Shown: piece by piece, positions 709 to 36,644 of the stretch
Layout: every line of letters begins with the position of its first letter
Numbering within the stretch: position 1 is the first letter of the stretch
Virus record (IMG/VR): IMGVR_UViG_3300035670_013255
Span: 1 to 39,219 of that record
Origin: a virus
DNA: 39,219 bases
Strand: one strand, 5' to 3'
Position numbers and translations under genes: made by a program
The notes under the pieces: generated by a model
The model's database searches: none
Seen by the model: the letters and a program-made list of their open reading frames with translations, nothing else
Told to the model about the DNA's origin: nothing

Positions 709-1869
709 ATGAAATGGATTAAACTTTTTGAAAGTTTCAAGGAAATTGAAAGTATTGTTTTAATTGGTGGTGGTATATCATCACTTTATGCAGCTTACTT
801 AATTAAAAAAAGATTTCCAAAGATTAAATATACCATTATCGAAAAGTCCGACAAATGTGGTGGGCGTGTTATTCAAGACGAACTAGACGGAGTGGATGTT
901 CCAACCGGTGCTCAATTTACAAGAATTGATAAAGATATATTATTAAATAAACTCTTAAAAGAACTTGAAATCGATTTAGATGTTTATAATTTAGATATTG
1001 ATTTCACATTCAGAAAGTCCGATGTTGATAGTATGATTTCAAAACTTAAAAAGAGTATGTCAAAATTCGATAGAAGTAAAATTACATTTTCCGAATTCGC
1101 AACTGATGTATTGGGTAAAAAAGAATATGAAAAATTTGTTGATATGATGGGTTATAGTGACTATGAAAATTCAGACTTTGAGGACACTATGACTAATTAT
1201 GGATTGGATGATAATTTACCTGGATATAAAGCAGCAGATGTTCCGTGGAATAAGGTTATTAAAAAGTTAATTTCAGAAGTAGGTCAAAAAAATATTGTTT
1301 TGAATACTGAAATCAAATCGATAAAAAATCAAAAGTCTAATTTTATTATTAACAATAAATGGAAGTGTGATGGTGTTATTATTGGAGTTACTATTAACTC
1401 ATTAAGAAAACTTATGGATGATTCTATTTACAATCAAATAGAGTCTCAGAGCTTCTTAAAAGTATTTGCTAAAACTACAGGAATGGAAGAAGTTGACAAA
1501 TATACAGTAGTAAACTCACCACTCAAAAAGGTTTTACCGGTAAAGAAAGATGTTTTTACAATCGCTTTTGCAGATAATAAAGATGCTACATATCTTAAAT
1601 CTAAAGATAAATCTTATTTTGAAAAGAGTTTATCAGAGCAATTTGATTCAGAAGTAAAGATTAAAAAAATGAAAAAATTCTTTTGGGAAGAAGGAACTCA
1701 TTATTTCAAACCACTACAAAAGAAATGGAAATCGAGAAAAGAGTTTTTAAAAGACGCACAACATCCACAAGACAACATTTGGGTAATTGGCGAAGTCGTT
1801 GCTGAAAAACAAGGTTGGGTGGAAGGAGCTTTAAATTCTGTAGAAAATATTTCTTTATTTAAGAAATAA
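709..1869 (+). CDS. FAD-dependent amine oxidase-like protein with capsid-targeting-like N-terminus
   Basis: 386 residues. Residues 16-53 form an FAD-binding Rossmann unit: the dinucleotide motif IGGGISSLYAA (19-29), an acidic residue ending strand two (E45) and GGR (51-53). The C-terminal GWVEGAL near residue 370 is the second FAD contact typical of the monoamine oxidase / protoporphyrinogen oxidase superfamily. The product is shorter than a typical 450-500 residue MAO. The first 15 residues, with MKWIKLFESF, precede the FAD fold and match the shared N-terminal peptide of this phage, suggesting virion packaging and cleavage after LFE. An upstream in-frame start at 658 would overlap the previous gene and lack the promoter. 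The substrate is unknown. Family call is firm; packaging is inferred. Confidence 0.85.
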   Translation: MKWIKLFESFKEIESIVLIGGGISSLYAAYLIKKRFPKIKYTIIEKSDKCGGRVIQDELDGVDVPTGAQFTRIDKDILLNKLLKELEIDLDVYNLDIDFTFRKSDVDSMISKLKKSMSKFDRSKITFSEFATDVLGKKEYEKFVDMMGYSDYENSDFEDTMTNYGLDDNLPGYKAADVPWNKVIKKLISEVGQKNIVLNTEIKSIKNQKSNFIINNKWKCDGVIIGVTINSLRKLMDDSIYNQIESQSFLKVFAKTTGMEEVDKYTVVNSPLKKVLPVKKDVFTIAFADNKDATYLKSKDKSYFEKSLSEQFDSEVKIKKMKKFFWEEGTHYFKPLQKKWKSRKEFLKDAQHPQDNIWVIGEVVAEKQGWVEGALNSVENISLFKK

Positions 1870-1873
1870 TTAT

Positions 1874-1881
1874 TATCTTTG
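1874..1881 (+). promoter_or_regulatory. Bacteroidota-type -7 promoter element TATCTTTG
   Basis: TATCTTTG fits TAnnTTTG and lies 19 bases before the ATG at 1901. No clear -33 TTTG is visible at the expected distance, so the call is moderate. Confidence 0.45.
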
Positions 1882-1900
1882 TTACTTAAAACATAAAATT

Positions 1901-2017
1901 ATGAATAGAAACGACTTTCAGGGTAAGAGAAAAGACCAATTGGAATTTTCTTATAAAATTACAGGAATTTCAATAGTATTATTAGGTTTAACTATTTTAG
2001 CAATTATTGTAGCATGA
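1901..2017 (+). CDS. Small single-pass membrane protein
   Basis: A 38-codon gene. The first 16 residues are polar and charged (MNRNDFQGKRKDQLEF), followed by one hydrophobic helix (about residues 19-38, ISIVLLGLTILAIIVA) that runs to the C-terminus. Its stop overlaps the next start in an ATGA arrangement (2014-2017), and a TAnnTTTG element lies upstream, both supporting a real gene. Function unknown. Confidence 0.65.
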   Translation: MNRNDFQGKRKDQLEFSYKITGISIVLLGLTILAIIVA

Positions 2018-2586: not shown

Positions 2587-2590
2587 CAAT

Positions 2591-3614: not shown

Positions 3615-3618
3615 AAAC

Positions 3619-3628: not shown

Positions 3629-3648
3629 TTTTGACAAATGTTATAGGA

Positions 3649-7189: not shown

Positions 7190-7915
7190 ATGGACTTAGG
7201 AAAAGAATTCAAAAAATACGCAAAAAGTGAAGGCATATCTTCACTTAACTTACATCACTTCGAAAATAGTATGACACCATATATATTAGAAGAAAGAGAA
7301 ATGAGAGTTACTCAAATGGATATTTTCTCAAGATTGATGAGAGATAGAATCTTATGGGTCGCAGGTGCAGTAGACGATAACATGTCTACGATCGTTCAAG
7401 CTCAGTTAATGTTCTTAGATTCGGTTGAAAAGAAAGATATTACAATGCACATCGACTCACCTGGTGGTTCTGTTAAATCAGGATTATCTATGGTAGATGT
7501 TATGAACTATATCAACTCCGATATTTGCACAATCAATACCGGCATGGCAGCATCTATGGGATCGGTTTTACTCTCATCCGGGACTAAAGGTAAAAGAGCA
7601 TCATTGAGATTTTCAAAAGTTATGACACATCAAGTAAGTCACGGAACTCAAGGTAATATTCAAGATACTCGTATAAATCAGTTAGAAGCTGAAAAATACA
7701 ACTACATTCTATTCAAAATATTAGGTGAGAATTGTGGTAAATCTTATAAAGAAGTTATTGAATGGTCGAGAAGAGATCGTTGGTATAACTCTGATGAAGC
7801 TCTAAAGTTTGGCCTTATTGATGAAATCATAGGTATTGATAAAAGTCCATCCATTGAAAAGTTATTAGAAGGATTTGACGAGTACTACAAAAACGAAGTA
7901 TTAGATAGAAGTTAA
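7190..7915 (+). CDS. ClpP-type serine protease
   Basis: 241 residues of the ClpP (S14) family. The catalytic triad is visible: Ser122 in GMAASMGSVLL, His147 in VMTHQVS and Asp196 in RRDRWYNSDEALKFGLID. The DSPGGSV oxyanion-loop motif is at 89-95. The N-terminal 45 residues replace a propeptide-like region and do not show a capsid-targeting pattern. It lies just upstream of a tagged protein. In phages, ClpP-like enzymes may process head proteins or redirect host proteolysis; which applies here cannot be told from sequence. Start is ATG at 7190 after an A-rich leader without Shine-Dalgarno. Confidence 0.9.
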   Translation: MDLGKEFKKYAKSEGISSLNLHHFENSMTPYILEEREMRVTQMDIFSRLMRDRILWVAGAVDDNMSTIVQAQLMFLDSVEKKDITMHIDSPGGSVKSGLSMVDVMNYINSDICTINTGMAASMGSVLLSSGTKGKRASLRFSKVMTHQVSHGTQGNIQDTRINQLEAEKYNYILFKILGENCGKSYKEVIEWSRRDRWYNSDEALKFGLIDEIIGIDKSPSIEKLLEGFDEYYKNEVLDRS

Positions 7916-7932: not shown

Positions 7933-7942
7933 TTAATATATA
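7933..7942 (+). promoter_or_regulatory. Late-type promoter motif TTAATATATA, 22-base leader
   Basis: Perfect TTAATATATA 22 bases before the ATG at 7965. It belongs to the subclass with a longer AT-rich leader seen also at 11852, 12647, 13069, 31523 and 38564. Confidence 0.6.
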
Positions 7943-7964: not shown

Positions 7965-9497
7965 ATGATTAAAAGATATTTAGACTTTGTTAATGAATCT
8001 TTAGAACTTCTATTAGAATCAAATGTGGTCTACTCTGACAAACTTAGAACCGTCTTAAATAAGATAGGTGGTCCAATTGCTCAAAAACTAATTGAAATTG
8101 AAAATACTGATTTACCAGTTAGGTCAAACTTTTTTGATATAGTTCCTAAAAAGAACGACTCTATCAACTTTATGCCTGATAGAAAGGCGCAAGAGATTTT
8201 AGCAGATAAAACAGTTAGTGTAAGATTTATTGGATCTGATTCGGGTTGGTTAAAACATTCACCAGCTAATGATGAAATCTTTGCAACACTTGGATATACA
8301 CCACAAGGTGCTAATCCTTATAGACCAAATTCTTCAGACATTGGAACAATAGTATCTAGTTATGTATCACCGACATCCGGTAAGACGTATTGCTATGTTA
8401 ATTTTTCAGACACATCTGGGATCGAATTAGGAAAAGGTGTTTACAATAAAGAAAAGTTAAGAGAGACCACTGACCAAAAGGATAAACTTTGGGGCAAAGG
8501 TCGTCAAGAAATTGGAGTTGGTAGAGGAATTAGAGCTTTACTTTTAACAACTGGTGAAAAGTTTTTAGATAAAGATATAGAAGCATTTGTAAATCTTTAC
8601 AAAGCAACTCTTGATAAGATGAATGATAAATTTTCCTTATTCGAGGTTGTTGATGGAGATGATATATATCATTGGTATCAAAGAGAAAATTACTTTGAGA
8701 GAAAAGGACAGTTAGGTGGTTCTTGTATGGGATCAGCTAGAGAATCTTGGCTTGAGATCTATACCACCAATCCAAATCAAGTAAAATTGATTATTATGAA
8801 ATCCGAACAAGATGATTCTATGATTATAGGTAGAGCTCTTCTTTGGACTCTTAGAGATGGTAAGAAGTTTATGGATAGAGTTTACACTATCAATGATTCT
8901 GATATACAGTTATTTAGAGAATACGCAAAAGAAAATGGATGGTATGCTAAGTATCATAATGGTAGCACATCTAATAATTCATCAATTGCACCTGAAGGTG
9001 GTGTAGTAAATTTAGACCTAACTGTAATTTTAGACAAGAAAGATTACGAACATTTTCCTTATTTAGATACTTTAAAATACTTTACACCAGGAACTGGTAA
9101 GCTAAACAACACTAGTGGTGATTACTTATTGGAAGATACCGGTGGTGATTATGTAAGATGTGATTCTTGTGGTGGAAGTGGAACTCAAGAGTGTTATGAT
9201 TGTGATGGAAGAGGAGAACAAGAGTGTTATGATTGTGATGGTAGCGGAACAGAGGATTGTAATAATTGTGATGGAAATGGAACACAACCTTGCGATAATT
9301 GTGATGGAGAAGGTCAAATAGAAGATGAAGAAGGAAATTCAGAAGATTGTCCAGAGTGTGATGGAGATGGTCATAGAGATTGTGAAGATTGCGATGGTAG
9401 CGGAAAAATGGATTGTTCAACTTGTGATGGTGATGGTAGAAATGAATGTTCGTCTTGTGATGGTCGCGGCGAACATGAATGTCACGAATGTAACTAG
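7965..9497 (+). CDS. SCM/GRALLW-domain protein with ten DnaJ-like zinc-binding motifs
   Basis: 510 residues. Residues 1-20 (MIKRYLDFVNESLELLLES) match the shared capsid-targeting-like peptide with possible cuts after VNE or LLE. A middle domain (about 230-375) has WYQREN, GGSCMG (252-256), IIGRALLWTL (287-296), FMDRVYT (302-308) and FPYLDTLKYF, and is shared with the protein at 14001. Residues 399-510 contain nine CxxCxGxG units and a final CxxC, nearly all spaced 11 residues apart with one 19-residue linker. DnaJ has four such units binding two zincs, so this array could bind about five zincs. No J domain is present. Binding of unfolded protein or nucleic acid is plausible but inferred. Confidence 0.8.
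   Translation: MIKRYLDFVNESLELLLESNVVYSDKLRTVLNKIGGPIAQKLIEIENTDLPVRSNFFDIVPKKNDSINFMPDRKAQEILADKTVSVRFIGSDSGWLKHSPANDEIFATLGYTPQGANPYRPNSSDIGTIVSSYVSPTSGKTYCYVNFSDTSGIELGKGVYNKEKLRETTDQKDKLWGKGRQEIGVGRGIRALLLTTGEKFLDKDIEAFVNLYKATLDKMNDKFSLFEVVDGDDIYHWYQRENYFERKGQLGGSCMGSARESWLEIYTTNPNQVKLIIMKSEQDDSMIIGRALLWTLRDGKKFMDRVYTINDSDIQLFREYAKENGWYAKYHNGSTSNNSSIAPEGGVVNLDLTVILDKKDYEHFPYLDTLKYFTPGTGKLNNTSGDYLLEDTGGDYVRCDSCGGSGTQECYDCDGRGEQECYDCDGSGTEDCNNCDGNGTQPCDNCDGEGQIEDEEGNSEDCPECDGDGHRDCEDCDGSGKMDCSTCDGDGRNECSSCDGRGEHECHECN
9159..9494 (+). repeat. Degenerate 33-bp tandem repeat encoding CxxCxGxG units
   Basis: Nine and a half in-frame copies of a 33-base unit (11 codons, TGT-nnn-nnn-TGT-GAT-GGT pattern) with one longer unit of 57 bases after the fifth. 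Codon choices vary among copies, so the array is diverged rather than newly expanded. Confidence 0.8.
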
Positions 9498-9498
9498 T

Positions 9499-9780
9499 AT
9501 GAAGTATATCAATTCATATAAAGTATTTGAAAGTCATTATAACAAAGAAGAGTTTATCGATGTTGTTTGTAGAGAACTTTCTAAATATCAAATAACACCA
9601 TTAGAGGTAAAAACCCTATTACAAAAATACGATAATCAAATAACTCAAAGTTTAGAATCTGGAATAAACCCTCAGGATTTTTCTAAACAAATTATTAGTG
9701 ATTTAGAATTAGATAACACCGGAGGTGCTTTATCTGTCAACTTTAATAAACCAAATGTTCCTGAGATAAAATATTTGTAA
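9499..9780 (+). CDS. Small protein with capsid-targeting-like N-terminus
   Basis: 93 residues starting MKYINSYKVFESHYNKEEF, a clear member of the shared N-terminal class with a predicted cut after VFE. The rest is helical and polar, without known motif. The ATG lies one base after the upstream stop, so the two tagged proteins are likely translated from one message; a longer in-frame extension upstream overlaps the zinc array in another frame and is rejected. It ends at a strong bidirectional terminator. Confidence 0.7.
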   Translation: MKYINSYKVFESHYNKEEFIDVVCRELSKYQITPLEVKTLLQKYDNQITQSLESGINPQDFSKQIISDLELDNTGGALSVNFNKPNVPEIKYL

Positions 9781-11123: not shown

Positions 11124-11855
11124 ATGAGAAAAATTAAAAGATATAAGCAGTTTTTTGAAGATTCAACCTCAACAGCTTCTTCAACATCCGGTAGTGGTGA
11201 TATATCAAATCCAACAGTAGGTACAATTCCTGGAATGCCTGGATTACCAGGTAGTGGAGATTTATCTTTTTATCTGAGAAGTAGGAAAAGAAAAAAAGGA
11301 AAAGCTAATCAAGTCACAGATTTAAGAGATTTAGCACCATCAAAGGAGGTTACTCATTTAAAAGAAAGTTTAGATTTCTCTCATAGAATACCGGAATTAA
11401 ATCCTGATATAAAATCAATAGTAAATGAATGTCTATCGGAATTAACTGACCAAGACTTTGAACTAACTATGTTAAAGTACGATAATAATAGAGAATCAGT
11501 TGAAATTGATGAAGATGAATCTGGTGAGTTTATTCAAGAAGAATTAAGAATATCATTACACAAAGTAATTAATATGATATGGACTGGCAATATGAGTTTA
11601 AGAGGTAATTTTAAAGAGAGTATAGAAGAAATAAAAACATATACATTGAGAGGTACAAAAGAACTCAATGATGAAGAGAAAAATCTAATAAATATAGTTG
11701 AGGTAGCTTCATTAAGGTTAAAAGATTTCTTGGAATATCAGAGTGGAGTATTCAACATTTCTTGGATAGTTGCTGGATCAGCAATGCCTTGGAATAGTGA
11801 AAGAACAGTAAATGTAAATGTTGACTTTACACTATTCAATGATTTAAAGATTTAA
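11124..11855 (+). CDS. Tagged hypothetical protein (capsid-targeting-like N-terminus)
   Basis: 243 residues. MRKIKRYKQFFEDSTS is a clear member of the shared N-terminal class with predicted cut after FFE. Residues 16-55 are low-complexity Ser/Thr/Gly/Pro (including GMPGLPGSG), like a linker, followed by a basic patch SRKRKKGK. The remaining part is mixed alpha/beta with no recognised domain. Likely a virion internal protein. The gene ends inside the late-type promoter of the next gene (its stop TAA is part of that motif). Confidence 0.7.
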   Translation: MRKIKRYKQFFEDSTSTASSTSGSGDISNPTVGTIPGMPGLPGSGDLSFYLRSRKRKKGKANQVTDLRDLAPSKEVTHLKESLDFSHRIPELNPDIKSIVNECLSELTDQDFELTMLKYDNNRESVEIDEDESGEFIQEELRISLHKVINMIWTGNMSLRGNFKESIEEIKTYTLRGTKELNDEEKNLINIVEVASLRLKDFLEYQSGVFNISWIVAGSAMPWNSERTVNVNVDFTLFNDLKI

Positions 11856-12681: not shown

Positions 12682-13059
12682 ATGAAAGAAGCATTTGGAC
12701 CACACATCACTATTGACCTCAAAGGTTGCCCTAAGGAAGTTTTATCAAATTATGATTTACACTTTGAATATTTGAAGAAATTGCCTGGATTAATCCAAAT
12801 GACTCCTATAACACAACCTTATGTATTTCCTTACTCTGGTTTAGTTCCATCTGATAAAGGCATCACTGGAATTGTAATAATTGCTGAAAGTCACCTTTCA
12901 ATTCACTCTTTCGAAGAAAAGGGATATTCATTTATTGATATATTTTCTTGTAAAGACTTTGATACAGAAAAGGCAATTCAAATTACATTGGAAATGTTTA
13001 AACCAGAATCTTATGAAATCAACACGGTTAAAAGAGGTTTAGATTTCCCAAGAGACTAA
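12682..13059 (+). CDS. speD: S-adenosylmethionine decarboxylase proenzyme
   Basis: 125 residues, the size of class 1B bacterial/archaeal AdoMet decarboxylase. The motif IIAESHLSIHSFEEKGYSF contains the self-cleavage site Glu69-Ser70, whose serine becomes the pyruvoyl group. His75 and Cys90 (DIFSC) have the same spacing as the catalytic Ser63-His68-Cys83 of the Thermotoga enzyme. It makes decarboxylated SAM, the aminopropyl donor for spermidine. No spermidine synthase or other polyamine gene is visible nearby, so it presumably feeds a host enzyme or lowers SAM. A late-type promoter suggests polyamine supply for DNA packaging or the virion; that is inference. Confidence 0.93.
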   Translation: MKEAFGPHITIDLKGCPKEVLSNYDLHFEYLKKLPGLIQMTPITQPYVFPYSGLVPSDKGITGIVIIAESHLSIHSFEEKGYSFIDIFSCKDFDTEKAIQITLEMFKPESYEINTVKRGLDFPRD

Positions 13060-13068: not shown

Positions 13069-13078
13069 TTAATATATA
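13069..13078 (+). promoter_or_regulatory. Late-type promoter TTAATATATA, 18-base leader
   Basis: Perfect motif just after the speD stop, 18 bases before the ATG at 13097. Confidence 0.55.
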
Positions 13079-13096: not shown

Positions 13097-13960
13097 ATGA
13101 AATATATTGTGAAGTATCATGATTTTGAGTCCGTTAATGAAGAACTTAATTGGTGGCAAAAATTACTATTAGGTGGTGGAATTATTGGATCAATGTTTGC
13201 CCCAAAGGATGTTTCTGGTCAAACAAAAGATGATAGCAAAAGAGTCACAGTACACACTAAAACAAAATCTGATAGAAGTGCTGAAATACTTCAAAAAAGG
13301 GGTTGGTCTTTAGATAGTACTACTATTGATACATTATGGAAAAAAGTTCAAATAGCAAAACCTGATACAGAACTTGTAACAAGTACTTTACAATTTGACG
13401 ATGCTCAGTTTTTTCCATCTGGTAAATTCACACTTACTCAGGAAATGATGGATGGTATCATTGAAGAGTTAAAAAGAATAGATTCTGAAGGTGGCGTTAT
13501 AACAGATGTCATGATTGAGTCTTCAACTGATAAACAAGGACTTAGTCAAAATCTTCAAAGATCATTATCAAATATGGGTTATACTTCAAATAATCAGGGT
13601 TTGTCACAAGCTAGATGTAATGCAATTAAAAGCTATTTAATGAGCTTACAAATAAGTCCCTCAATTATACAAGAAAATCCTCTTTGGGAACAAGGTACTG
13701 CAACAATCGACCAGTCGGCTAGATATGTGTTTGTGAGGTTCGCTTATATAGTTATTGATCAAAATATCACACCAGGTGAATTTGAATACATACCTCAAAT
13801 TAAAAAAACTTACCATCTATCAAAAGAAAGTGAGTATAAGAAAGTTAAAATAAAAAAGAGTTCGTTTAAATGGGGAACTAAAAAAGTTAGAAAACACGGA
13901 CCAATTAAAAATCGTAAACTAAACCTTAAAGGTGTTGAATGTAGAATGCCTGGTGGATAA
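13097..13960 (+). CDS. OmpA-like domain protein with capsid-targeting-like N-terminus
   Basis: 287 residues. MKYIVKYHDFESVNEELNWW carries the shared N-terminal peptide (cut predicted after DFE or VNE). A glycine-rich hydrophobic stretch follows (LLLGGGIIGSMFAP). Residues about 95-220 resemble an OmpA/MotB C-terminal domain: a FPSGKFTL-like start, a central VMIESSTD strand, then LSQARCNAIKSYLMSLQI and a late VFVRFAYIVI strand. The tail (230-287) is very basic. OmpA-like domains bind peptidoglycan, so a cell-wall contact role for a virion protein is possible; the match is by pattern only and the usual NxxLSxxRA motif is altered. Confidence 0.65.
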   Translation: MKYIVKYHDFESVNEELNWWQKLLLGGGIIGSMFAPKDVSGQTKDDSKRVTVHTKTKSDRSAEILQKRGWSLDSTTIDTLWKKVQIAKPDTELVTSTLQFDDAQFFPSGKFTLTQEMMDGIIEELKRIDSEGGVITDVMIESSTDKQGLSQNLQRSLSNMGYTSNNQGLSQARCNAIKSYLMSLQISPSIIQENPLWEQGTATIDQSARYVFVRFAYIVIDQNITPGEFEYIPQIKKTYHLSKESEYKKVKIKKSSFKWGTKKVRKHGPIKNRKLNLKGVECRMPGG

Positions 13961-14000: not shown

Positions 14001-15677
14001 ATGTATATAAGGAGATATAGTAACTTTGTAAAAGTTAAAAGAATAAATGAGTCGATTGCCTTATTTGAAGCAGTTCTAAATATTGATAAAAATATTGTAG
14101 ATGTATTAGACCAAATGGTGTCTGATAAAAATGCTGATGAGAAATATAAAATAATTGCTGGCACCATTAAAAGTGGTATAGGTCAAGATTATAAATCAAA
14201 TCGATATGATCAAGTAAGTTTATCATCTGATAATAAAAATTTTAGTGTAAAATCAGGTAAGCAGACAAACACACAGAGCATATCAAAAGTCATTAGAACA
14301 ACTTTAATGGCTATAAATCCTAATTTCTTCAAAGATAATTCACAAATAAAAGATGATACTATTCAGAAATTTGCAGATTATATAATTGGTAAAATGTCTA
14401 TTTCAGCTCCGTCTGGTGATACTGAAACCAAAATAGTTACAGGTGAAGAAATTAAATTCTGGTATGATAGAAAAAACATGAAGAATAAAACAGGTAGCGA
14501 ATTATCTAAATCTTGTATGGCGTCGAATTATAAATTAAATTTCATGGATTTTTATGTTAAAAATAAAAATATTAGTTTAGTTGTTAAATTAGATGCTGAT
14601 AAAAAACTTATAGGTAGAGCTCTACTTTGGAAACTCGAAAGTTCAAGTGAAGGAAATGAATATTTCTTAGACAGACGTTACTGCAATGAGAATTCAGACG
14701 AAGAGTTTCTTTATAATTGGGTTAAGTCACAACCTGGATATTCTAAAACAGGTAAAAGAGAAAGTAAAGCTTTGAGTTCAAATACATCTGATGAAATGGT
14801 TGTAAAACTAGATGTTGCCATTACTAAGACTTATCCGTATGTTGATACGATGAAATATCTTTATATCAAATATGAGAATGGAAATTTAATCAATGAAGGA
14901 TTTTTATCAAATAAAAAAATGGGAGAAGGTAATAAAAATGAATTTGTGGGAATAGTTGAATATCCTGGTCACAAAATTTTTGTTCTTCAAGATACCGAGG
15001 GATGTAGAAAATCACTGGATCCGGAGGATAGACATCTTAACAGCAAAGGTATAACTAAAATTATAACCGGATTGAATAAACAAATTGATGTGAGTGAATA
15101 CGACAAACCACTAGGTGATGCCAAGTCTGTAATTAACTTACTTAATTTTTTCAAGAAATCAGGTGATTTAGCATCAATGTTTGATATAAAGATTACTGAT
15201 GATGATGTTGAGGATGAGGGTTATGAAAAATTTGATAACTCTACACTTGTAAAACCTGGTCTAAATGTAAAAATGGTAAATAGTTATTCAGGAGATAGAG
15301 ACTCGGTCAAATATATGTGTTTAAGAGCATATGATGTGTCTAAGCTAATGGATGATAGAGAATTTGCTGAAATTGTAGAAAAGATTAGCACGATGTATAT
15401 GCTAGAACATAAAAAATTGATGACGGAAATTGACCTAATTATTCTTGGTAGATTAGATGAGGTTAAGTCGAGTGAAGTTTATTACGTCGGCGCTGATAAT
15501 TTACGATACGAAAAAGATAGTGATTCGGATGATTTAGACACAGACAATTTACCAAAACTAACCTCTGAACAAAAAGAAGAAAGAGCAAATGAATTATTAG
15601 TTAAATTATCTAAGAACGATGAAGCTCTTAAATTAAGACAGGAACTAATAAAGTTAGCACCTATGTTAAGAGGTTAA
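14001..15677 (+). CDS. SCM/GRALLW-domain protein, tagged paralogue of the 7965 protein
   Basis: 558 residues. The N-terminus MYIRRYSNFVKVKRINESIA has the shared peptide pattern with candidate cuts after INE or LFE. The region 150-290 matches the 7965 protein: FWYDRKN, SKSCMAS (169-175), LIGRALLWKL (203-212), FLDRRY, and YPYVDTMKYLY. The zinc array is absent; instead there are about 270 further residues with no recognised domain. The invariant Cys of SCM suggests a catalytic or metal role but no partner His can be chosen confidently. No late-type motif is seen close to the start, so it may share the upstream transcript. Confidence 0.7.
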   Translation: MYIRRYSNFVKVKRINESIALFEAVLNIDKNIVDVLDQMVSDKNADEKYKIIAGTIKSGIGQDYKSNRYDQVSLSSDNKNFSVKSGKQTNTQSISKVIRTTLMAINPNFFKDNSQIKDDTIQKFADYIIGKMSISAPSGDTETKIVTGEEIKFWYDRKNMKNKTGSELSKSCMASNYKLNFMDFYVKNKNISLVVKLDADKKLIGRALLWKLESSSEGNEYFLDRRYCNENSDEEFLYNWVKSQPGYSKTGKRESKALSSNTSDEMVVKLDVAITKTYPYVDTMKYLYIKYENGNLINEGFLSNKKMGEGNKNEFVGIVEYPGHKIFVLQDTEGCRKSLDPEDRHLNSKGITKIITGLNKQIDVSEYDKPLGDAKSVINLLNFFKKSGDLASMFDIKITDDDVEDEGYEKFDNSTLVKPGLNVKMVNSYSGDRDSVKYMCLRAYDVSKLMDDREFAEIVEKISTMYMLEHKKLMTEIDLIILGRLDEVKSSEVYYVGADNLRYEKDSDSDDLDTDNLPKLTSEQKEERANELLVKLSKNDEALKLRQELIKLAPMLRG

Positions 15678-15685
15678 TTAAAATA

Positions 15686-16213: not shown

Positions 16214-16217
16214 ACTA

Positions 16218-16247
16218 CAAATATAATAAAAAAATTATAAAAACAAA
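16218..16247 (-). promoter_or_regulatory. Bacteroidota-type promoter (TTTG-18-TATATTTG), leaderless
   Basis: Minus-strand TATATTTG (16218-16225) is four bases before the ATG at 16213; TTTG (16244-16247) lies 18 bases further upstream. It overlaps the end of the preceding membrane-protein gene. Confidence 0.7.
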
Positions 16248-18878: not shown

Positions 18879-18888
18879 TATATATTAA
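18879..18888 (-). promoter_or_regulatory. Late-type promoter TTAATATATA, 5 bases before ATG
   Basis: Minus-strand TTAATATATA, then CTCTG, then the ATG at 18873 of the tagged lysozyme. Confidence 0.65.
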
Positions 18889-20260: not shown

Positions 20261-21588
<1,328 letters not shown>

Positions 21589-21589
<1 letters not shown>

Positions 21590-22274: not shown

Positions 22275-22493
22275 ATGAAAGAATATCAATATCCAAAACC
22301 AGGTGGAATTTACAGACACTATAAAGGTGGCCTCTATGAGGTATTATTTCTTTCAAAACACACAGAGACAGATGAGATTTTGGTCACTTACAAATCGATA
22401 CATTTTGGTTCTTATTATTCAAGACCACTTGATTCCTGGAATAAACCAGTTGATTTAAATACTAATTCAAAAAGATTTACACTAGAGAAATGA
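22275..22493 (+). CDS. DUF1653 protein
   Basis: 72 residues. PKPGGIYRHYKGGLYEVLFL, KHTETDEILVTYKS and YYSRPLDSWNKPV follow the DUF1653 pattern across the whole protein. The family is often found beside nucleotide or repair genes but has no firm biochemical role. It overlaps purN by ATGA. Confidence 0.85.
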   Translation: MKEYQYPKPGGIYRHYKGGLYEVLFLSKHTETDEILVTYKSIHFGSYYSRPLDSWNKPVDLNTNSKRFTLEK

Positions 22494-23035
22494 CAATAGG
22501 AATATTTGCTTCTGGTAAGGGTAGTAATGCTGAAAACATAATAAGGTATTTTCACAACACAAATCATAAAATTATAATTTTCACTAATAATGAAGATGCT
22601 GGAGTTATTGAAATTGCTTGGACTTTTAATGTAAATTGCATCATATTCAATAAATATGAAAAACTAATTAATATATTAGATTTTAATCAAATAGATTTTA
22701 TTGTTCTGGCTGGATATACTAAGATTATACCACCGGATATTATTGAAAAATACGAAAATAGAATTATCAATATACATCCGTCTTTACTTCCTAAATATGG
22801 TGGTAAAGGAATGTGGGGTATGAATGTTCATAAAAGTGTAATAGAAAATAAAGAAAAAGAGTCAGGAATAACCATTCACTATGTTTCGGAAAATTATGAT
22901 GAGGGTCGAATTATTGAACAACATAAATTAGAGGTTTTACTCTGTGACACACCAGAAACTTTAGCAAAAAAAATCTCTCAATTAGAGAGAGAACATTTTC
23001 CCAAATGCATTAAAAGATTAATCTCCTTCTTTTGA
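22490..23035 (+). CDS. purN: Phosphoribosylglycinamide formyltransferase
   Basis: 181 residues. FASGKGSNAENI (6-17) is the ribosyl phosphate loop. NIHPSLLPKYGG (94-105) contains catalytic Asn94 and His96, and NYDEGRII (135-142) includes Asp137, matching the Asn-His-Asp set of PurN. It transfers a formyl group from 10-formyl-tetrahydrofolate to GAR. Insertion GKGMWGMNVHKSV differs from the usual PGLHTHRQA, typical of phage and divergent forms. It is convergent with, and overlaps by 18 bases, the coiled-coil membrane protein gene. Confidence 0.92.
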   Translation: MTIGIFASGKGSNAENIIRYFHNTNHKIIIFTNNEDAGVIEIAWTFNVNCIIFNKYEKLINILDFNQIDFIVLAGYTKIIPPDIIEKYENRIINIHPSLLPKYGGKGMWGMNVHKSVIENKEKESGITIHYVSENYDEGRIIEQHKLEVLLCDTPETLAKKISQLEREHFPKCIKRLISFF

Positions 23036-23707: not shown

Positions 23708-24139
23708 TTATTTATAAACTTTGAACGGCGCTGTTCTATTTTTATAATTAGGAAAATCTTTTTTGAAGTCTTCCAATCTAGGCTCAATATCATCAGACTT
23801 AATAATCCAAAATTGAGCACCAGCTTGTAATGCCTTAGATTGTTCTGTTGGCTCATTTGAAGAAGATATGATACCAATAACAACATGGTTTCCATATTGA
23901 TAGTTGATTCTTCTAATCAATTCAATTCCATCAAAAGATGATCCTACAATGTTCAAGTCTACGAAAACACACTCTGGTTTACCGTCGGAGTTTGCCATCC
24001 ACCCTTTGAATAATTTTTCTGCCTCGTCAGCACTTGTCATACTTTCTAAAGAAAGCGTAATATCTAAAAGACTACAAGCGTCTTCAAAAACTAAATGGAA
24101 TAAATCCTCATCATCGACTAATAAAATTGAATCAATCAT
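23708..24139 (-). CDS. Response regulator receiver protein (stand-alone)
   Basis: 143 residues from the ATG at 24139, which forms an ATGA overlap with the kinase stop (an upstream in-frame start at 24172 would overlap the kinase further). MIDSILLVDDED carries the acidic pair Asp9/Asp10; VFVDLNI gives phospho-acceptor Asp61; GIISSSNE contains the conserved switch Ser (about 92-94) and FWIIKSDD the Lys (114). There is no DNA-binding or enzyme domain, so it works by protein contact or as a phosphate shuttle. Direct coupling to the kinase gene makes it the probable partner. Confidence 0.9.
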   Translation of the reverse strand: MIDSILLVDDEDLFHLVFEDACSLLDITLSLESMTSADEAEKLFKGWMANSDGKPECVFVDLNIVGSSFDGIELIRRINYQYGNHVVIGIISSSNEPTEQSKALQAGAQFWIIKSDDIEPRLEDFKKDFPNYKNRTAPFKVYK

Positions 24140-26292
24140 ATACTTACTTTTATTTTTAATTTTGTCCCACATTCGGGCAATTTTTCTGCTGTTATTTCAA
24201 ATCCATGTTCGTGTAGTATGGATTTACATATGTTAAGACCTAAACCACTTCCTGTTTCTTGCTGCCCCTCTTTTCTAACATAAGGTTTTGATAAATGTTC
24301 AAATTCTTCTTGACTAATTCCCCTACCATTATCTTCGACACATATATAACTTTTTCTCAAACCGAATTGTTTTCTTTCGGCTTCAAAGTAAATCTTTACA
24401 AATTTTGTTGCACTATCATTATACTTAAGACCATTTCTTATCAGATTATCAATTGAGGTACAGAAAAGAGCCTCATTAACTACCAACACCGGTAAATTTT
24501 CATCTAAAATAACTTGTGACTTATAGGAAGTGCTTGATAAATAATCTTCTAAAATTAATTTTATATTACAAGCCGTTTTAGATAGAACTACTTCTTTTTT
24601 TACTAAGTTAGTAAACTCATATACTCCTTTGTAAACTTTCTGAGTATGTTTTAATCCCTCTTTTATCATTTTTAGAGGAGCTTCTATTTTTAGATTTTTT
24701 ATATCTTCCTCGGTTAGTCTTCTTTCTAATGAACTCACACCTCTTGGAATATAAGTGTTAATTCCTGAGTGCATATCATGTCTCAGTATTTTAGCAGCAT
24801 GTTCCAAGTAAGTATTTTTCTTGTCTATTTCTAATGATTGAATAACTTTATCGGTTATATCAGTCGCTATTTTCATTATACTTATAACACTTCCTTTATT
24901 ATCAAATATTGGATTATATGTCGCTTGAATCCAAACTTCTTTTCCATCTTTTGTTAATCTCTTAAATTCAGATGAAACAAATTGACCGGAACTTAATTTT
25001 TCCCAAAGTTCAACATATTCTTTTGTTGATTTATTTTCGATAAAAATACTATGATGTCTTCCAACTAACTCATTGAGTTCATAACCCATGGATTTGCAGA
25101 AGTTATTATTTGCAAATTTTATATCACCATTAATATCAAACTCAATAACCATATTTGATTGATTAATAGCATCCATTCTGTATCTAAAGTCAAGTTCTTT
25201 TCTTTTTAGTTCACTAACATCTTGTCTTATGGATGTAAATCCAATCAACTCATTCGTATCTGAATCAAATTCCGCCTTTATATAAGTATCAACATAATAT
25301 AGTGTTCCATTTTTAGCTTTATTAGTAACTATCATATTCCATATTTTTTTCTCTTTAATAATAGTCTTATACATTTCTTTCCAAAATTCCTTATTGTGTT
25401 GACCAGAGTTTACTATATTATGATCTTTCCCTAAAACTTCCTCCATACTATAACCAGAAACCTCTGTAAATTTTTTATTAACATAAGTAATTTTACCATT
25501 TGAATCTGCTTTAGAAATAAGTGTTGCTTCATCTATAAATTTTTCTATCTCAATCAATTGTTTCTTTTGTTTATTACCTTCTTTTATAGAATGTGCGAAT
25601 GAATAAAGTGTAGATAACATTTGAGAGAAATTTACCTCTAAACTATTCCAAATTCTTTTTTCTAAACTCTCAATACAAATTACACCAATTACTTTTCCAT
25701 CATACATTATTGGAACATCTAACATTGATTTTATTTCAAGTGGTTGTAAATAAGAATCTTTGAAACAACTAGTAGCTGGATGTGATTCAGCATCATTTGC
25801 CACTATTATAGGATCAACTTGTAAGTGATTAAAGTAAGGCTCAAAGTCTTTTTTTAAAAGCTCAGTGCCAGAATACCAATTATCTTCTTTTTTCACATAT
25901 AATTGTTGACAAATTATAGATGTTTTATCTTTATTATAAAGCCAAATTGAACATCTATCAGTACAAATCGAGTTACAAACTTCCTTTGTAAGCGACATTG
26001 CTCCTTCTCTAACTTTTCCATCATAAAAAGATTGATTTTGAGATTGTAGAACAATGACTTCTTTCAGTTTTTTCTGATAGTCAAATTGTTTAATAATTTG
26101 TTTATTTTTATCCAATAAGTCCTTTATCACAAAATAAAATGGTGGCAGAAATGAAAGGAACAAAATATATCCCATAGCTATCCTAAAGTCAGTAGCCTCA
26201 TAAAAATCAAAAACTAAAAGAGTTTGATTAAGAAAAAATAATATCATTATGATAGCTGCTAAATAGCAGGAAAATTTAGTAAGTTTTTTCAT
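24136..26292 (-). CDS. Membrane sensor histidine kinase with GAF and two PAS domains
   Basis: 718 residues. Two membrane helices (about 8-28 and 36-57), a GAF-like domain (about 75-235; DVPIMYDGKVIGVICIES), PAS domains at about 250-365 and 372-485, then the transmitter: HILRHDMHSGIN-type H-box with His505 (KILRHDMHSGIN), N-box Asp615-Asn616 (SIDNLIRNGLKYND), G1 box EDNGRGI (653-659) and G2 box GSGLGL (681-686). The H-box lacks the usual Pro after the His. All ATP-binding motifs are present, so the kinase looks intact. It sits in the host inner membrane with small or no periplasmic domain. A perfect late-type promoter lies five bases upstream of the start. Confidence 0.93.
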   Translation of the reverse strand: MKKLTKFSCYLAAIIMILFFLNQTLLVFDFYEATDFRIAMGYILFLSFLPPFYFVIKDLLDKNKQIIKQFDYQKKLKEVIVLQSQNQSFYDGKVREGAMSLTKEVCNSICTDRCSIWLYNKDKTSIICQQLYVKKEDNWYSGTELLKKDFEPYFNHLQVDPIIVANDAESHPATSCFKDSYLQPLEIKSMLDVPIMYDGKVIGVICIESLEKRIWNSLEVNFSQMLSTLYSFAHSIKEGNKQKKQLIEIEKFIDEATLISKADSNGKITYVNKKFTEVSGYSMEEVLGKDHNIVNSGQHNKEFWKEMYKTIIKEKKIWNMIVTNKAKNGTLYYVDTYIKAEFDSDTNELIGFTSIRQDVSELKRKELDFRYRMDAINQSNMVIEFDINGDIKFANNNFCKSMGYELNELVGRHHSIFIENKSTKEYVELWEKLSSGQFVSSEFKRLTKDGKEVWIQATYNPIFDNKGSVISIMKIATDITDKVIQSLEIDKKNTYLEHAAKILRHDMHSGINTYIPRGVSSLERRLTEEDIKNLKIEAPLKMIKEGLKHTQKVYKGVYEFTNLVKKEVVLSKTACNIKLILEDYLSSTSYKSQVILDENLPVLVVNEALFCTSIDNLIRNGLKYNDSATKFVKIYFEAERKQFGLRKSYICVEDNGRGISQEEFEHLSKPYVRKEGQQETGSGLGLNICKSILHEHGFEITAEKLPECGTKLKIKVSI

Positions 26293-27401: not shown

Positions 27402-28064
27402 TTACTTCTTTGTTGTTAAATCTATTGAAGATTTTTCTTCAAGAGATCTTATAGCCACATAATCACCAGCGTCATAGACTTCATATTCTCTATCTATTTC
27501 ATCTTGTTTTCTAGCAAGTTCTTCTTCAAGCATTCTGGTAAATTCACCTGTCACACCATGGTCTTGTTTATCTAAATAAATATCCAGATCATTTCTTTGG
27601 TTATATTCATCATAAGAACTATCCAAATCCCATTTAGTGACTCTCATTCCTTTAGAATTGAAAAATCTTTCTATTTCATTTTTAAAAATATAAAGTGTTC
27701 TCCATTCATATTTTGATATAAATTCATATTCCTCTTCTCCTAGATCTTTAGGATTGAGTTCAATTCTAAGTTGACTGTGTGCAAAAGACATACTGAAATT
27801 CCAATTTCCCAATCTTTCTTCAGCTGCTAAAACATCTTCTATATTCTCTGTAATTAATTTTAATTTTTGAACCATAGATTTAGCATCTTGTAAATGTGAA
27901 AAGTCCATTTCTAAATTCCATCTAAGAATGTATTTTTTTCCATTACCTATTCTGTAGCTTCCTATGTCTGGATTACCAAAAGCATCATTGATATAAACTA
28001 AGTTTTCTATAATCTCACTTATCTCGTCATCTTTTGATTCAAAGAATTTTTTCAAATGTTTCAT
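27402..28064 (-). CDS. Tagged hypothetical protein (capsid-targeting-like N-terminus)
   Basis: 220 residues. MKHLKKFFESKDDEISE is a textbook member of the shared N-terminal class, cut predicted after FFE. The body is alpha/beta with many acidic residues and no known domain. The start at 28064 (not the in-frame 28100) is set by a late-type motif five bases upstream. Probably a virion internal protein. Confidence 0.7.
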   Translation of the reverse strand: MKHLKKFFESKDDEISEIIENLVYINDAFGNPDIGSYRIGNGKKYILRWNLEMDFSHLQDAKSMVQKLKLITENIEDVLAAEERLGNWNFSMSFAHSQLRIELNPKDLGEEEYEFISKYEWRTLYIFKNEIERFFNSKGMRVTKWDLDSSYDEYNQRNDLDIYLDKQDHGVTGEFTRMLEEELARKQDEIDREYEVYDAGDYVAIRSLEEKSSIDLTTKK

Positions 28065-28069: not shown

Positions 28070-28079
28070 TATATATTAA
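28070..28079 (-). promoter_or_regulatory. Late-type promoter TTAATATATA, 5 bases before ATG
   Basis: Minus-strand TTAATATATA, ACAAT, then the ATG at 28064. Faces a plus-strand motif 22 bases away. Confidence 0.65.
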
Positions 28080-30530: not shown

Positions 30531-31367
30531 TTATGCCAATTCCTCAACTTGTTTTTTACTTCTCATCATTTCATATGCTCTAGCTAATCTAGTCATTCCA
30601 ATTCCACCACCGAATCTTGGAAAGAATTCATATCCTAAGAATAATTCTAATTCTTTTTCAACTCTCTCTTTACCAAACAATTCGAATAGTTTTGAACAAT
30701 ATTTACCATCTTCTATTGTGTAAAACATTTCTCTCATTTTTTCTACATCACAACTTCTTTCAGCTGATCCAATAGTTTCTTGACCATAAAGAATAACATC
30801 TACTTTATTAAATATCCCATCTTTGTTATGTTGCATATTCCAGAAAGGATTAGTTCTCAGTGGGAAGTTTTGAAGTGACACAACCGCTCCTTTTTCATTC
30901 CACATTTTTTGTTCGTGTTCATTTTCTAAAATTGGAACTCCACCGTATTCTTGACAAACATCTTCATAGTTTACTTCTACTGGTTTATCAAATCCTAAAT
31001 AATCTAAAAGTTCTGATTCTAATTTAAGTAGTTCTTTCATACCACCCTTTGACTCGAACTCAAACATTGGGAAGATTAATTCATGTCTTCCAGGAATTGG
31101 ATTTTTTTCTTGTCTGTAAGAAGTTGAGATACAGAAGCATCCTTCCCAAGTTGGATTCATAAGTAGTTCGTGTTCTAACCACATTTGACCTGTTTGTGGA
31201 AGAGGCCATACTTCACCACAATAATTGTAGGTGGTGATTGAGTGAGGATTTTCACACGCTGCTAAGATTGATAATCTTGATTGTGTTGGTACTTCGATGA
31301 AGTTTTTTTGCAAAAAAAATGCTCGCATCTTTTGTACGAGCTCATGATAAGTTTTTGTGTTTCTCAT
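30531..31367 (-). CDS. Stand-alone class II aminoacyl-tRNA-synthetase-like catalytic domain
   Basis: 278 residues from the ATG at 31367 (MRNTKTYHELVQKMRAFF); an in-frame start at 31475 would add 36 residues without family support. FIEVPTQSRL begins the class II core, STSYRQEKNPIPGRHELIFPMFEFE is motif 2, and FPRFGGGIGMTRLARAYEMM is motif 3. There is no anticodon-binding domain, so it is not a normal AspRS/AsnRS/LysRS; it resembles the group annotated as amino acid-tRNA ligase-related proteins, which includes EpmA-like modifying enzymes. It may activate an amino acid for attachment to a protein or small molecule. Substrate unknown. Confidence 0.8.
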   Translation of the reverse strand: MRNTKTYHELVQKMRAFFLQKNFIEVPTQSRLSILAACENPHSITTYNYCGEVWPLPQTGQMWLEHELLMNPTWEGCFCISTSYRQEKNPIPGRHELIFPMFEFESKGGMKELLKLESELLDYLGFDKPVEVNYEDVCQEYGGVPILENEHEQKMWNEKGAVVSLQNFPLRTNPFWNMQHNKDGIFNKVDVILYGQETIGSAERSCDVEKMREMFYTIEDGKYCSKLFELFGKERVEKELELFLGYEFFPRFGGGIGMTRLARAYEMMRSKKQVEELA

Positions 31368-33112: not shown

Positions 33113-33644
33113 CAGGGTTAAATTGTTCTTTAGTTAGGTTACAAGTAAATTGATGTCCTTTATACTTGGCTATAAGTCCAGGATAAGACATCGAACTTCC
33201 ATTAAATTGTATATCTTTATGATCGGTAAGTTGTGATGCGGAAACTTTTATATTTAATTCCTCTTTAATTCCTCTTACACCAGCCACAGATGGTGATTCT
33301 CCAAATTTCATTTTCTCTGAAACAGAAGACAACATCTTTCTTTTTCTTACCCTACCATCATTGAATTCTTGTCTATCCTCAATGAGATGATAAATATTTT
33401 CTTCCTCATCTTTATAGAAAACTTCTACCCCAACAAATTCAATAATTCTATGAAGTGATTCTCCATTCTCTATTAACTGACATTCATTATTCACTAACTC
33501 CTCATATAGATCTTGTAAGTCTTTAGCCTTACCGGTTCCCCAACTTGAAATAGGTATTGAAAATTTTCGCAAGTAATTCTCTAGTTCCTCTACTGACTGA
33601 AAATCTTTTGATTTAAAGTCTTCAAATAGTTTTATAAAACGCAT
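33054..33644 (-). CDS. Nudix-like protein with capsid-targeting-like N-terminus
   Basis: 196 residues. MRFIKLFEDFKSKDF matches the shared N-terminal peptide, with a predicted cut after LFE. Near residues 120-140, GESPSVAGVRGIKEELNI fits the Nudix box E-x7-R-x-U-x-E-E, keeping the paired Glu but with Gly in place of the first Glu after Arg and no Gly at the box start. The last strand and helix (GYVEIQRTKKTFFKW) also fit a Nudix fold. Activity may therefore be reduced or changed. Usual Nudix substrates are nucleoside diphosphates linked to another moiety. A perfect late-type motif lies four bases upstream. Confidence 0.65.
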   Translation of the reverse strand: MRFIKLFEDFKSKDFQSVEELENYLRKFSIPISSWGTGKAKDLQDLYEELVNNECQLIENGESLHRIIEFVGVEVFYKDEEENIYHLIEDRQEFNDGRVRKRKMLSSVSEKMKFGESPSVAGVRGIKEELNIKVSASQLTDHKDIQFNGSSMSYPGLIAKYKGHQFTCNLTKEQFNPDGYVEIQRTKKTFFKWIKN

Positions 33645-33648: not shown

Positions 33649-33658
33649 TATATATTAA
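33649..33658 (-). promoter_or_regulatory. Late-type promoter TTAATATATA, 4 bases before ATG
   Basis: Minus-strand TTAATATATA, TGCT, then the ATG at 33644 of the Nudix-like gene. Confidence 0.65.
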
Positions 33659-33686
33659 ACTTATCATATTATTATTTAATAATAGT

Positions 33687-34370: not shown

Positions 34371-34744
34371 CAATTGATCTAAATGATATACCAATTGGAG
34401 TTGCTGAATCTCAATACCAACTAGATATATTAAAGTCTGGAAAAATTTATAAAGAATTACTTAAAATGAGTGAAAAAAAATATACTTGTATTATAGTTTC
34501 AATGCCGGTTTATAATGTTTTGGTGCACCATGATAAGTTTTATCAGAACCCATTCGATTCAATAGAATCAACTACTGAAGTGGGTATATTCTGTGGATAT
34601 AAAGTTTTTTTGGACCTGACTCTACAAGAAAATTTGATTCAACTCACTTATGATTTTCAAGAGAAGAGAGATAATGTTTTAGATAATCTTCTAGAAAATG
34701 AGGAAATAAAAAAAGACCTTAAAATTAAGGTCTTAAATTGTTAA
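34367..34744 (+). CDS. Hypothetical protein
   Basis: 125 residues, starting MTIDLNDIPIGVAESQYQLD, alpha/beta with an acidic C-terminal helix. It is the second gene of a pair joined by ATGA. Its last seven codons lie in a hairpin that also encodes the end of the convergent DHH gene. No family recognised. Confidence 0.6.
   Translation: MTIDLNDIPIGVAESQYQLDILKSGKIYKELLKMSEKKYTCIIVSMPVYNVLVHHDKFYQNPFDSIESTTEVGIFCGYKVFLDLTLQENLIQLTYDFQEKRDNVLDNLLENEEIKKDLKIKVLNC
34713..34734. terminator. Bidirectional terminator inside both coding ends
   Basis: AAGACCTTAA and TTAAGGTCTT form a 10-base stem with a 2-base loop (effective loop larger). Both convergent reading frames run through it: the plus gene stops at 34744 and the minus gene at 34725. 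Confidence 0.75.
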
Positions 34745-36236
34745 ATTTTTTGAAGTTTATAACTTTCTTTTCCGTTGTTGGTTTTATCACTTTACCATAT
34801 GGATCAAGTTTAGTCACCTGTTCTGTTGGAATAACCTTATAATCTTCTGGTTTATCTTGTTCTCTACTTTCACCCGCTTCGCCCCAAACCGTTTGTATAG
34901 GAAAATTAACACCTGAAAGATCGGTTATGATTTTATTTTTAAACATATCGATGAATCTAACTCCTTCAAAACCTTTACTGTTACATGTACCAAATATATT
35001 TGAAATAGAACCAATTCCACCGTGGCCTCCTGAAACAGTAATTTCATCTTGTCCGATTGAAGTATCTGGATCATAATAACCTAAATGCTGTTGGAAATTT
35101 TTTAATAACTCTGTCATATAAACTCCCAAATCATCAACTGTTTTACCATTCTTTAACACCGGTAGATTCTGAGTCTCAGTCATAGGTTTATAAGAACAAA
35201 CTTGAAGTGTTCCTCCATATTGGAGTAGAATAAATTTAGGTTCTTTTGATAATAGTCCGTTTTTGAAATCTGTTTCAATTATAGAACGAGCTCTTAACGC
35301 ATTAGCCCAAGTTCCAGTAGGAACAAATGCTAAATCACCAATCATTGTATAACCATCTAATCTAATTTTACCAGCTGATAAAAAGTCATTCATAAAGTCT
35401 TGATGTGATTGATAGTTCTTTTTAGCTCCACCTAACTTTCCTCTTGTTTTTTGTTGCATTTGATTCAATCTCCATTCGGAGTCAGAAATAAAGTCTTTTG
35501 ATTGACCTTTCATAGGTCCTGATGGAAACACATTATGTTCACCGTAAACAGTTTTCATCACATTGAAAATTGAATATATTGATGCATCTTTACAATTGTG
35601 AATAACTGATATAAGTGTTTGATGATCAGCTCTTTTTAAGAATTGATTAAAAGCTGCTGCGAATTCAAGTCTTTTATTTGGAGATTTTTTAATTTCAGAT
35701 AAATCAAAATCTAAAAGTCTTGACCAACTAACATTGTATTGTTGATACTTTGCAGCATCAATCATATCTATTACAGACAGAACTAACTCATCTTGTGGGA
35801 CTCCAAGTGATTGACAAATCGCTTCATAAGCTGAAGCTGTTTTTTTCTTTTGAACTGGAGAAGATTTATATTTCTCTAAATCTTCAGCACTGAATGATCC
35901 GTGATGATCTAAGTAATAGTCGATATATTGGTCTCTTTCATCACCTGGCATACTTGCAAAATCTACCACAACATTTATGAGTTTAGGATCTACTGATGTG
36001 TATTTCCAACCATCCATATAATTTAAGATACCATATTTCTCTATTGTAAAACCTTTATTAAGAAGATACTTCTTAACTTCGATTGCTGAAAAAATTCCAT
36101 CCATATCATCATGTGTATATAGAGCTACGACTTTTCCTTTTTTTCCTTTTCTCATCCAATATTCTTGATCTACTGGAAGTCTTGGTGATGCCTCTTCGTT
36201 GAGAGGCATAAAATTATTGAAGTTTCTTATTTTCAT
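34725..36236 (-). CDS. DHH-family phosphoesterase with capsid-targeting-like N-terminus
   Basis: 503 residues. The tag region reads MKIRNFNNFMPLNEEASP, with a predicted cut after LNE. The DHH core follows: THDDMDG (41-47), VVVDFA (90-94) with Asp92, and LDHHG (109-113). GGHGGIGS (403-410) matches the DHHA1 GGH region. Long insertions between them make it larger than NrnA-type enzymes. The superfamily degrades nanoRNAs, cyclic dinucleotides, pAp, or single-stranded DNA. If it is packaged and injected it could destroy cyclic-nucleotide alarm signals; this is inference. Perfect late-type motif four bases upstream. Confidence 0.85.
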   Translation of the reverse strand: MKIRNFNNFMPLNEEASPRLPVDQEYWMRKGKKGKVVALYTHDDMDGIFSAIEVKKYLLNKGFTIEKYGILNYMDGWKYTSVDPKLINVVVDFASMPGDERDQYIDYYLDHHGSFSAEDLEKYKSSPVQKKKTASAYEAICQSLGVPQDELVLSVIDMIDAAKYQQYNVSWSRLLDFDLSEIKKSPNKRLEFAAAFNQFLKRADHQTLISVIHNCKDASIYSIFNVMKTVYGEHNVFPSGPMKGQSKDFISDSEWRLNQMQQKTRGKLGGAKKNYQSHQDFMNDFLSAGKIRLDGYTMIGDLAFVPTGTWANALRARSIIETDFKNGLLSKEPKFILLQYGGTLQVCSYKPMTETQNLPVLKNGKTVDDLGVYMTELLKNFQQHLGYYDPDTSIGQDEITVSGGHGGIGSISNIFGTCNSKGFEGVRFIDMFKNKIITDLSGVNFPIQTVWGEAGESREQDKPEDYKVIPTEQVTKLDPYGKVIKPTTEKKVINFKKFNNLRP

Positions 36237-36239
36237 ATC

Positions 36240-36644
36240 TTATATATTAATTTTACAGATGGAAATATTTATATGGTCAAGTTCTTTTCTAATATGATTT
36301 ATTTTCCAACCATAATCTTTCAATCTTAAACTTGATATGTTGATAATATCATTGAATTCATCTGAGTCAACTAATTGCTCTAAATCAAATTCCACCATTC
36401 TTTGACTCATATTTTGGTAATTCTTCTTTCCAATATTTACTGATATATATGGTTCTAAATCAAATTTTAAATTTGAATAATCTGATGACTTTGTTATAAG
36501 TTTTTCTGTGAATTTTACATTTATATAGTAATCTTTTTCTTCTAAATCATAAAACATATCCTTTATATCCTCAGGATAAAGACCATATTTTTCGAGATAA
36601 TCTATCTCTTCATTATTCTCAAAGAATGGTTTTAGATATTTCAT
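36240..36644 (-). CDS. Tagged hypothetical protein (capsid-targeting-like N-terminus)
   Basis: 134 residues starting MKYLKPFFENNEEIDYLEKY, with FFE at the predicted cut. The remainder is acidic alpha/beta without a recognised domain. ATGA overlap with the upstream amidoligase gene, and its stop codon lies inside the promoter of the DHH gene, so the three genes are tightly packed. Confidence 0.65.
   Translation of the reverse strand: MKYLKPFFENNEEIDYLEKYGLYPEDIKDMFYDLEEKDYYINVKFTEKLITKSSDYSNLKFDLEPYISVNIGKKNYQNMSQRMVEFDLEQLVDSDEFNDIINISSLRLKDYGWKINHIRKELDHINISICKINI
36241..36250 (-). promoter_or_regulatory. Late-type promoter TTAATATATA, 4 bases before ATG
   Basis: Minus-strand TTAATATATA, AGAT, then the ATG at 36236 of the DHH gene. 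It overlaps the last bases of the upstream coding region. Confidence 0.65.

Follow-up and report, generated by a model that had tools for sequence, protein, structure and literature searches.

Why do about a dozen proteins of seemingly unrelated function, all encoded on one short viral fragment, begin with a similar peptide? The question is raised by the IMG/VR virus record IMGVR_UViG_3300035670_013255, a fragment of 39,219 bases that was analysed over its whole length (the window). An earlier note had listed twelve of its genes as sharing an N-terminal peptide (the tag), and had proposed that this peptide, similar to the capsid-targeting sequence (CTS) of phage T4 internal proteins, marks enzymes for packaging in the head. 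Based on the sequences compared here, we consider it probable (roughly 80%) that the tag is a T4-type CTS in very large-scale use, whose carriers would be packaged, cut and delivered. This reading builds on the tag itself, its modularity and its conservation at the protein level, on a protease and scaffold repeats found in relatives, on matching cleavage motifs and on a shared promoter-like box. The note's proposal is partly supported: all of its parts that sequence can address agreed with expectation.

By sequence comparison, the window comes from a relative of LR756502 and its kin, huge phages with genomes of 642-735 kb, and covers only a piece of that relative's genome. Its DHH phosphoesterase-like protein has 15 viral relatives (63-70% identity, on contigs of up to 204 kb), and the gene order at 34.7-39.2 kb is the same in the phage genome G006 and also in LR756502, except for a different tagged DHH-like gene in the latter. 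Furthermore, the capsid protein and protease of the window's relatives are closest to those of the huge-phage genomes LR745206, LR756501-504 and LR756500. For the genomes >634 kb of that set, Bacteroidetes were predicted as replication hosts by its authors (PMC7162821).

Distribution of the tag and the proteins that carry it

All twelve listed reading frames are open and start where the earlier note placed them; the motif written there proved too strict, fitting only 3 of the 12. To avoid circularity, we scored N-termini with a position-weight matrix (PWM; expectation-maximization, 11 positions, fixed spacing) trained only on another genome, LR756502, and defined the tag line as the score above 99% of a null of 10,829 internal-methionine windows. 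Using this line, 9 of the window's 61 open reading frames (ORFs) scored as tagged compared to 0.6 expected, and 11 of 62 with 9499 and 28064 at corrected starts (binomial P ~3e-11). Nine of these eleven belong to the original list (709, 7965, 9499, 11124, 13097, 18873, 28064, 33644 and 36644), and the remaining two (10504 and 36641) are borderline and were not counted as tags. The claim of a common peptide also holds for 14001 and 36236, which show the same pattern at a shifted spacing, and is doubtful for 18067, which stays below the line. The twelve N-termini are as follows (aa, amino acids).

709-732, plus strand: tag MKWIKLFE, then S; FAD amine-oxidase-like protein (709-1869); PWM score 17.8
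7965-7997, plus strand: tag MIKRYLDFVNE, then S; 510-aa protein with C-terminal CxxC repeats; PWM score 12.2
9499-9531, plus strand: tag MKYINSYKVFE, then S; 93-aa protein; PWM score 16.2
11124-11159, plus strand: tag MRKIKRYKQFFE, then D; 243-aa protein; PWM score 14.7
13097-13141, plus strand: tag MKYIVKYHDFESVNE, then E; OmpA-like protein; PWM score 10.2
14001-14051, plus strand: tag-like MYIRRYSNFVKVKRINE, then S; 558-aa paralogue of 7965; YxxF and INES site, fails the fixed-spacing PWM
18050-18067, minus strand: doubtful tag MRRINE, then S; NES present, aromatic pair absent, fails the PWM
18799-18873, minus strand: tag MKKIKSYEYFLEQQIIDYINYSVNE, then S; GH24 lysozyme; PWM score 14.5
28038-28064, minus strand: tag MKHLKKFFE, then S; 220-aa orphan; PWM score 19.7, exceeding all null windows
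33621-33644, minus strand: tag MRFIKLFE, then D; 196-aa protein; PWM score 16.2
36195-36236, minus strand: tag MKIRNFNNFMPLNE, then E; DHH phosphoesterase-like protein; fails the fixed-spacing PWM
36618-36644, minus strand: tag MKYLKPFFE, then N; 134-aa protein; PWM score 16.2

Orthologues of the 11124 protein in G010 and LR756502, as well as the LR756502 orthologue of the 33644 protein (55% identity), are tagged too, and a 10-row alignment of the 36236 protein shows that FNxF and [IL][NK]E are conserved. Regarding the functional labels, an E-value of 0.009 is the only basis for calling 33644 Nudix-like, and the OmpA-like label at 13097 (E=1.3e-5) falls just under the Pfam cut-off.

We determined the same counts in comparison genomes, which are partly fragments with mechanically called ORFs; all counts include false positives amounting to ~1% of all ORFs. 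In LR756502, 213 of 925 N-termini, on many unrelated proteins, are over the line (9 expected), followed by 36/176 in G006, 30/155 in G010, 47/249 in G011, 21/220 in G003 and 55/508 in the first 400 kb of LR756500. Three cultured Bacteroidetes phages are near background (Tenacibaculum phage PTm1, 9/287; PAU, 7/287; Flavobacterium phage MaF61, 5/186), and pieces of Lak phages show a weak excess over 1% (11 of 230 ORFs of at least 90 aa), with examples mostly unlike the tag. Scanning the collection for one exact version (MKHLKxYKIFE, then S or W) recovered 20 viral loci, where this version is joined to about a dozen different bodies and 62 of 184 ORFs are tagged. The usual lead of the tag is basic/hydrophobic, M[KR]x[LI][KR]. 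Hence, the shared peptide of the earlier note is real, and its scale is far larger than the dozen proteins proposed: as judged by the matrix, some 10-23% of the clade's ORFs carry it.

These analyses, together with comparisons of the protein bodies, indicate that the tag is a short N-terminal module common to otherwise unrelated proteins and does not reflect shared ancestry. When the first 25 residues were removed, tagged proteins fell into 321 BLAST clusters of bodies, of which 226 are singletons; this total overstates independence because BLAST misses diverged paralogues. Within the window, the statement that the bodies are unrelated needs one correction, since one pair, 7965 and 14001, is paralogous (31% identity). 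RNA ligase 1 (Rnl1) is tagged in four huge phages (MKLFKYIEFINE then N, MKKLHRYNSFIKE then S, MKLKKYLEFIKE then E and MKIYTFNQYLKE then S), and is found without the tag in LR756504 and G008, where the protein begins at the enzyme, like T4-type RnlA. Similarly, LR756502 has two GH24 lysozymes, of which only one is tagged, and the domain of the window's lysozyme (18873) begins at residue 117. In the FAD protein (709), the Rossmann homology begins at residue 14; a viral orthologue retains the tag, and no cellular relative was found in a scan of genome contigs. In an AlphaFold2 model of the DHH protein, which is modest overall (mean pLDDT 61), residues 1-20 have a pLDDT <50.

Three further candidates were discarded. 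The DHH protein had prompted a search for a C-terminal copy of the tag, for which no enrichment was found. Ribosomal protein S21 of huge phages is reported to have an N-terminal extension (PMC7162821); this is not the tag, as S21 in LR756502 and LR756501 begins at its domain. A pterin dehydratase in the locus L191 resembles tag plus enzyme; its FEW end may be coincidence, and it was therefore not used.

Prohead protease, scaffold repeats and a shared promoter-like box

In the T4 internal protein IPIII, CTS residues 4 and 7 are responsible for targeting, and residues 8 and 10 make processing possible (PMC9026906). In MKTYQEFIAE, these four are Y, F, I and E, an aromatic pair and I-x-E. An aromatic pair at i,i+3 followed by hydrophobic-x-E is likewise present in the tags of the clade, so that the resemblance to T4 put forward in the earlier note extends to the residues with known roles.

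A prohead protease of the T4 gp21 type, which the note had named as a gene to search for, is found in syntenic relatives and is missing from the 39-kb window: the S77 domain occurs in several named records and in five relatives from IMG/VR. The G006 and G010 proteins that contain it are 730-732 aa long, and their second half consists of repeats such as NIAYSEYIAENLDK.

G006, 160745-162937, minus strand: prohead protease-scaffold fusion with many near-identical 14-residue repeats
G010, 14242-16440, plus strand: prohead protease-scaffold fusion with many near-identical 14-residue repeats

The scaffold repeats (YSEYIAENLDKNI) match the core of the T4 CTS. We searched 2,295 ORFs, away from their N-termini, for a T4-like core pattern ([YF]xx[FY][ILV]xE[SNAGD]), and the most internal copies were found in four protease-scaffold fusions (8, 8, 8 and 6), the next-highest count being 2 in the protease protein of LR756500. 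A spacing-shifted control pattern gave no match in the protease-scaffold fusions.

The tags end in hydrophobic-x-E followed by S or N. The capsid protein of the relatives carries a conserved INE/N (or MNE/N; the slash marks the presumed cut) near residue 43; we infer from the analogous T4 gp23 that this is where the protein is cut during maturation, and the same predicted cleavage motif is common to this protein and the scaffold (xNES, IAEN). Hydrophobic-x-E followed by S, N, A, D, G or T within residues 5-24 was detected in 65% of tagged and 13% of untagged ORFs, preferences at P3 and P2 being partly built into the matrix. This applies far less to the enrichment of Ser after E (17% of tagged compared to 7% of untagged ORFs, P=2e-21). 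The expected likeness of the tag ends to prohead-protease sites is borne out by the predicted capsid-protein site.

Tagged genes also share a late-promoter-like box (T[TA]AATATATA or TTTATATATA). When the count was restricted to genes preceded by 40 or more free bases, the box was present in front of 80 of 122 tagged genes, compared to 149 of 701 untagged ones (P=2e-21). It also precedes 10 of 14 structural genes picked by hand, and is hardly used in the more distant LR756500. In the window it was located at the following positions.

7933-7942, plus strand: late-promoter-like box, -32 of 7965
13069-13078, plus strand: late-promoter-like box, -28 of 13097
18879-18888, minus strand: late-promoter-like box TTAATATATA, -15 of 18873
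28070-28079, minus strand: late-promoter-like box TTAATATATA, -15 of 28064, seen in the upstream sequence
33649-33658, minus strand: late-promoter-like box, -14 of 33644
36241-36250, minus strand: late-promoter-like box, -14 of 36236

In upstream regions of G003, G006, G010, G011 and LR756502, the TTAATATATA box lies ~13-15 bases before the start codon in many tagged genes and ~30 in most others, which suggests very short leaders on many tagged genes.

Candidate cargo and neighbouring genes

Among 140 tagged representatives, Pfam matches comprise PPK2, RNA ligase 1, PNK3P, NUDIX, methyltransferases, GH24 and GH108 lysozymes, a DUF2201 metallopeptidase/VWA protein and a 2H phosphoesterase; the latter also passes the Acb1 cut-off, with the 2'-5' RNA ligase model scoring higher. 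A HAD protein is likewise found among the tagged bodies. The majority of tagged proteins have no Pfam match, and several large ones gave weak and uninformative matches only. Untagged controls include portal, DHFR, IMPDH, tRNA synthetases and glycosyltransferases. The composition of the tagged set would suit early-acting or anti-defence cargo. Separately, a tagged 193-aa protein in L184 and L193 (LYHG...GAIFLTSN...A.DFAG) is reminiscent of ADP-ribosyltransferase folds, without Pfam support.

Other genes of the window include a ClpP-type protease (7190-7915, plus strand; E=9e-53), with relatives in 6/6 comparison genomes, and a PAS/GAF histidine-kinase-like protein (HATPase_c; 23708-26292, minus strand) adjoining a response-regulator receiver protein, a two-component-like pair with orthologues in the phage genomes G010 and G011. 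Purine and polyamine genes are represented by adenylosuccinate synthetase (20261-21589), a PurN-like formyltransferase (22490-23035) and S-adenosylmethionine decarboxylase (12682-13059), and a 278-aa protein (30531-31367, minus strand) resembles a short class II (D/K/N) tRNA synthetase.

Proposed mechanism, competing explanations and significance

As the T4 targeting and processing residues are the part common to tags and scaffold repeats, we propose docking on the scaffold by mimicry, followed by cleavage. Late in infection, the aromatic pair of the tag ([YF]xx[FY]) may dock on, or imitate, the scaffold's repeating YSEY[IL]AEN units, which would draw tagged proteins into the prohead core. The tags would then be cut after hydrophobic-x-E (followed by S or N) by the gp21-like protease that is fused to the scaffold, and the same protease would cut the scaffold and the major capsid protein. 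Once freed, the proteins would stay inside the head until they enter a new cell together with the DNA.

Several points weigh against this reading. The strict consensus site is absent from one third of the tags, one tagged representative matched the PQ-loop family, which is odd as cargo and possibly a false positive, and ~200 tagged proteins far exceeds any reported head cargo. The window lacks capsid genes and a protease gene (Pfam PF03420 gave no match there, as expected for a fragment), and the T4 internal proteins fail the fixed-spacing matrix since their tag is shorter. In addition, the core pattern was written once the T4 CTS, tags and scaffold repeats were known, and therefore only the ranking of proteins counts as independent. 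A literature search gave no virion proteomics for members of this clade.

Alternatively, the peptide might direct the sorting or processing of proteins bound for a place other than the capsid interior (for instance the tail, a membrane site or a phage replication compartment), which would fit the tagging of ~20% of the proteome. We regard this as unlikely, given that the core is commonest in the prohead scaffold among all proteins, that tag ends match the capsid-protein site, that the promoter box is common to tagged and structural genes and that the tags, read as sequence, have no secretion-signal-like hydrophobic stretch. It is less likely still that most tagged proteins descend from a single expanded family of small proteins and have diverged, the N-terminus being just their best-conserved part. 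Many small tagged proteins do share an ILxELxDxGF-like stretch, and the 7965 and 14001 proteins are paralogues; the bodies, however, range from Rnl1, lysozymes, NUDIX, HAD and PPK2 to methyltransferases, 2H phosphoesterase, DHH and FAD oxidase, and both Rnl1 and the LR756502 lysozymes exist with and without the tag. Common descent is thus refuted as a full explanation and may account for part of the small orphans.

Selection on the mRNA start or an AT-rich codon bias is highly improbable as the source of the pattern. The GC content of 29%, the Lys-rich tags and a somewhat raised use of AAA and TTA speak for it. Against this, the other synonymous codons of the tags follow genome usage and identical peptides are encoded by different DNA, indicating that selection acts on the peptide, which rules out a nucleotide-level signal. 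Moreover, the tag is near background in PTm1, PAU and MaF61, although PTm1 and PAU have 30-31% GC.

The preferred reading, a T4-type CTS, shares with T4 IPI, IPII and IPIII an N-terminal stretch of 10-25 residues on otherwise unrelated proteins (in T4 MKTYQEFIAE/A, cut by gp21), a YxxF core, a hydrophobic-x-E end and, in the window's relatives, a gp21-type protease. In contrast to T4, in which three internal proteins and Alt (3-4 proteins) are involved, roughly 150-200 proteins are tagged in one genome of the clade, the tag usually has the extra lead, and protease and scaffold are fused. Phages phiKZ and SPN3US similarly cut many head proteins after E and eject cargo, with Ser favoured at P1' in SPN3US; their substrates number 9 (SPN3US) and at least 19 (phiKZ, 201phi2-1), SPN3US propeptides are mostly long, and the available part of that source reports no shared short tag (PMC10052503). 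In phage P1, the first 30 residues of DarB suffice for packaging of this anti-restriction cargo, whereas Dar N-termini lack a consensus and there is no separate scaffolding system (PMC9024508). No report of a tag on such a scale was found in a literature search that covered few subscription journals.

Overall, we lean towards a model in which the largest known phages load >100 different proteins, a sizeable share of the proteome, into the head via a tag mimicking the scaffold repeats, such that infection would start with a delivered kit including RNA-repair, nucleotide and cell-wall enzymes. If true, packaging would be predictable from sequence in the biggest phages, hundreds of orphan genes would receive first functional hints, and the tag could serve for loading proteins into phage heads. 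The large size of such genomes and heads would be partly explained, and the kit would hint at how anti-defence and takeover enzymes work ahead of any phage gene expression.

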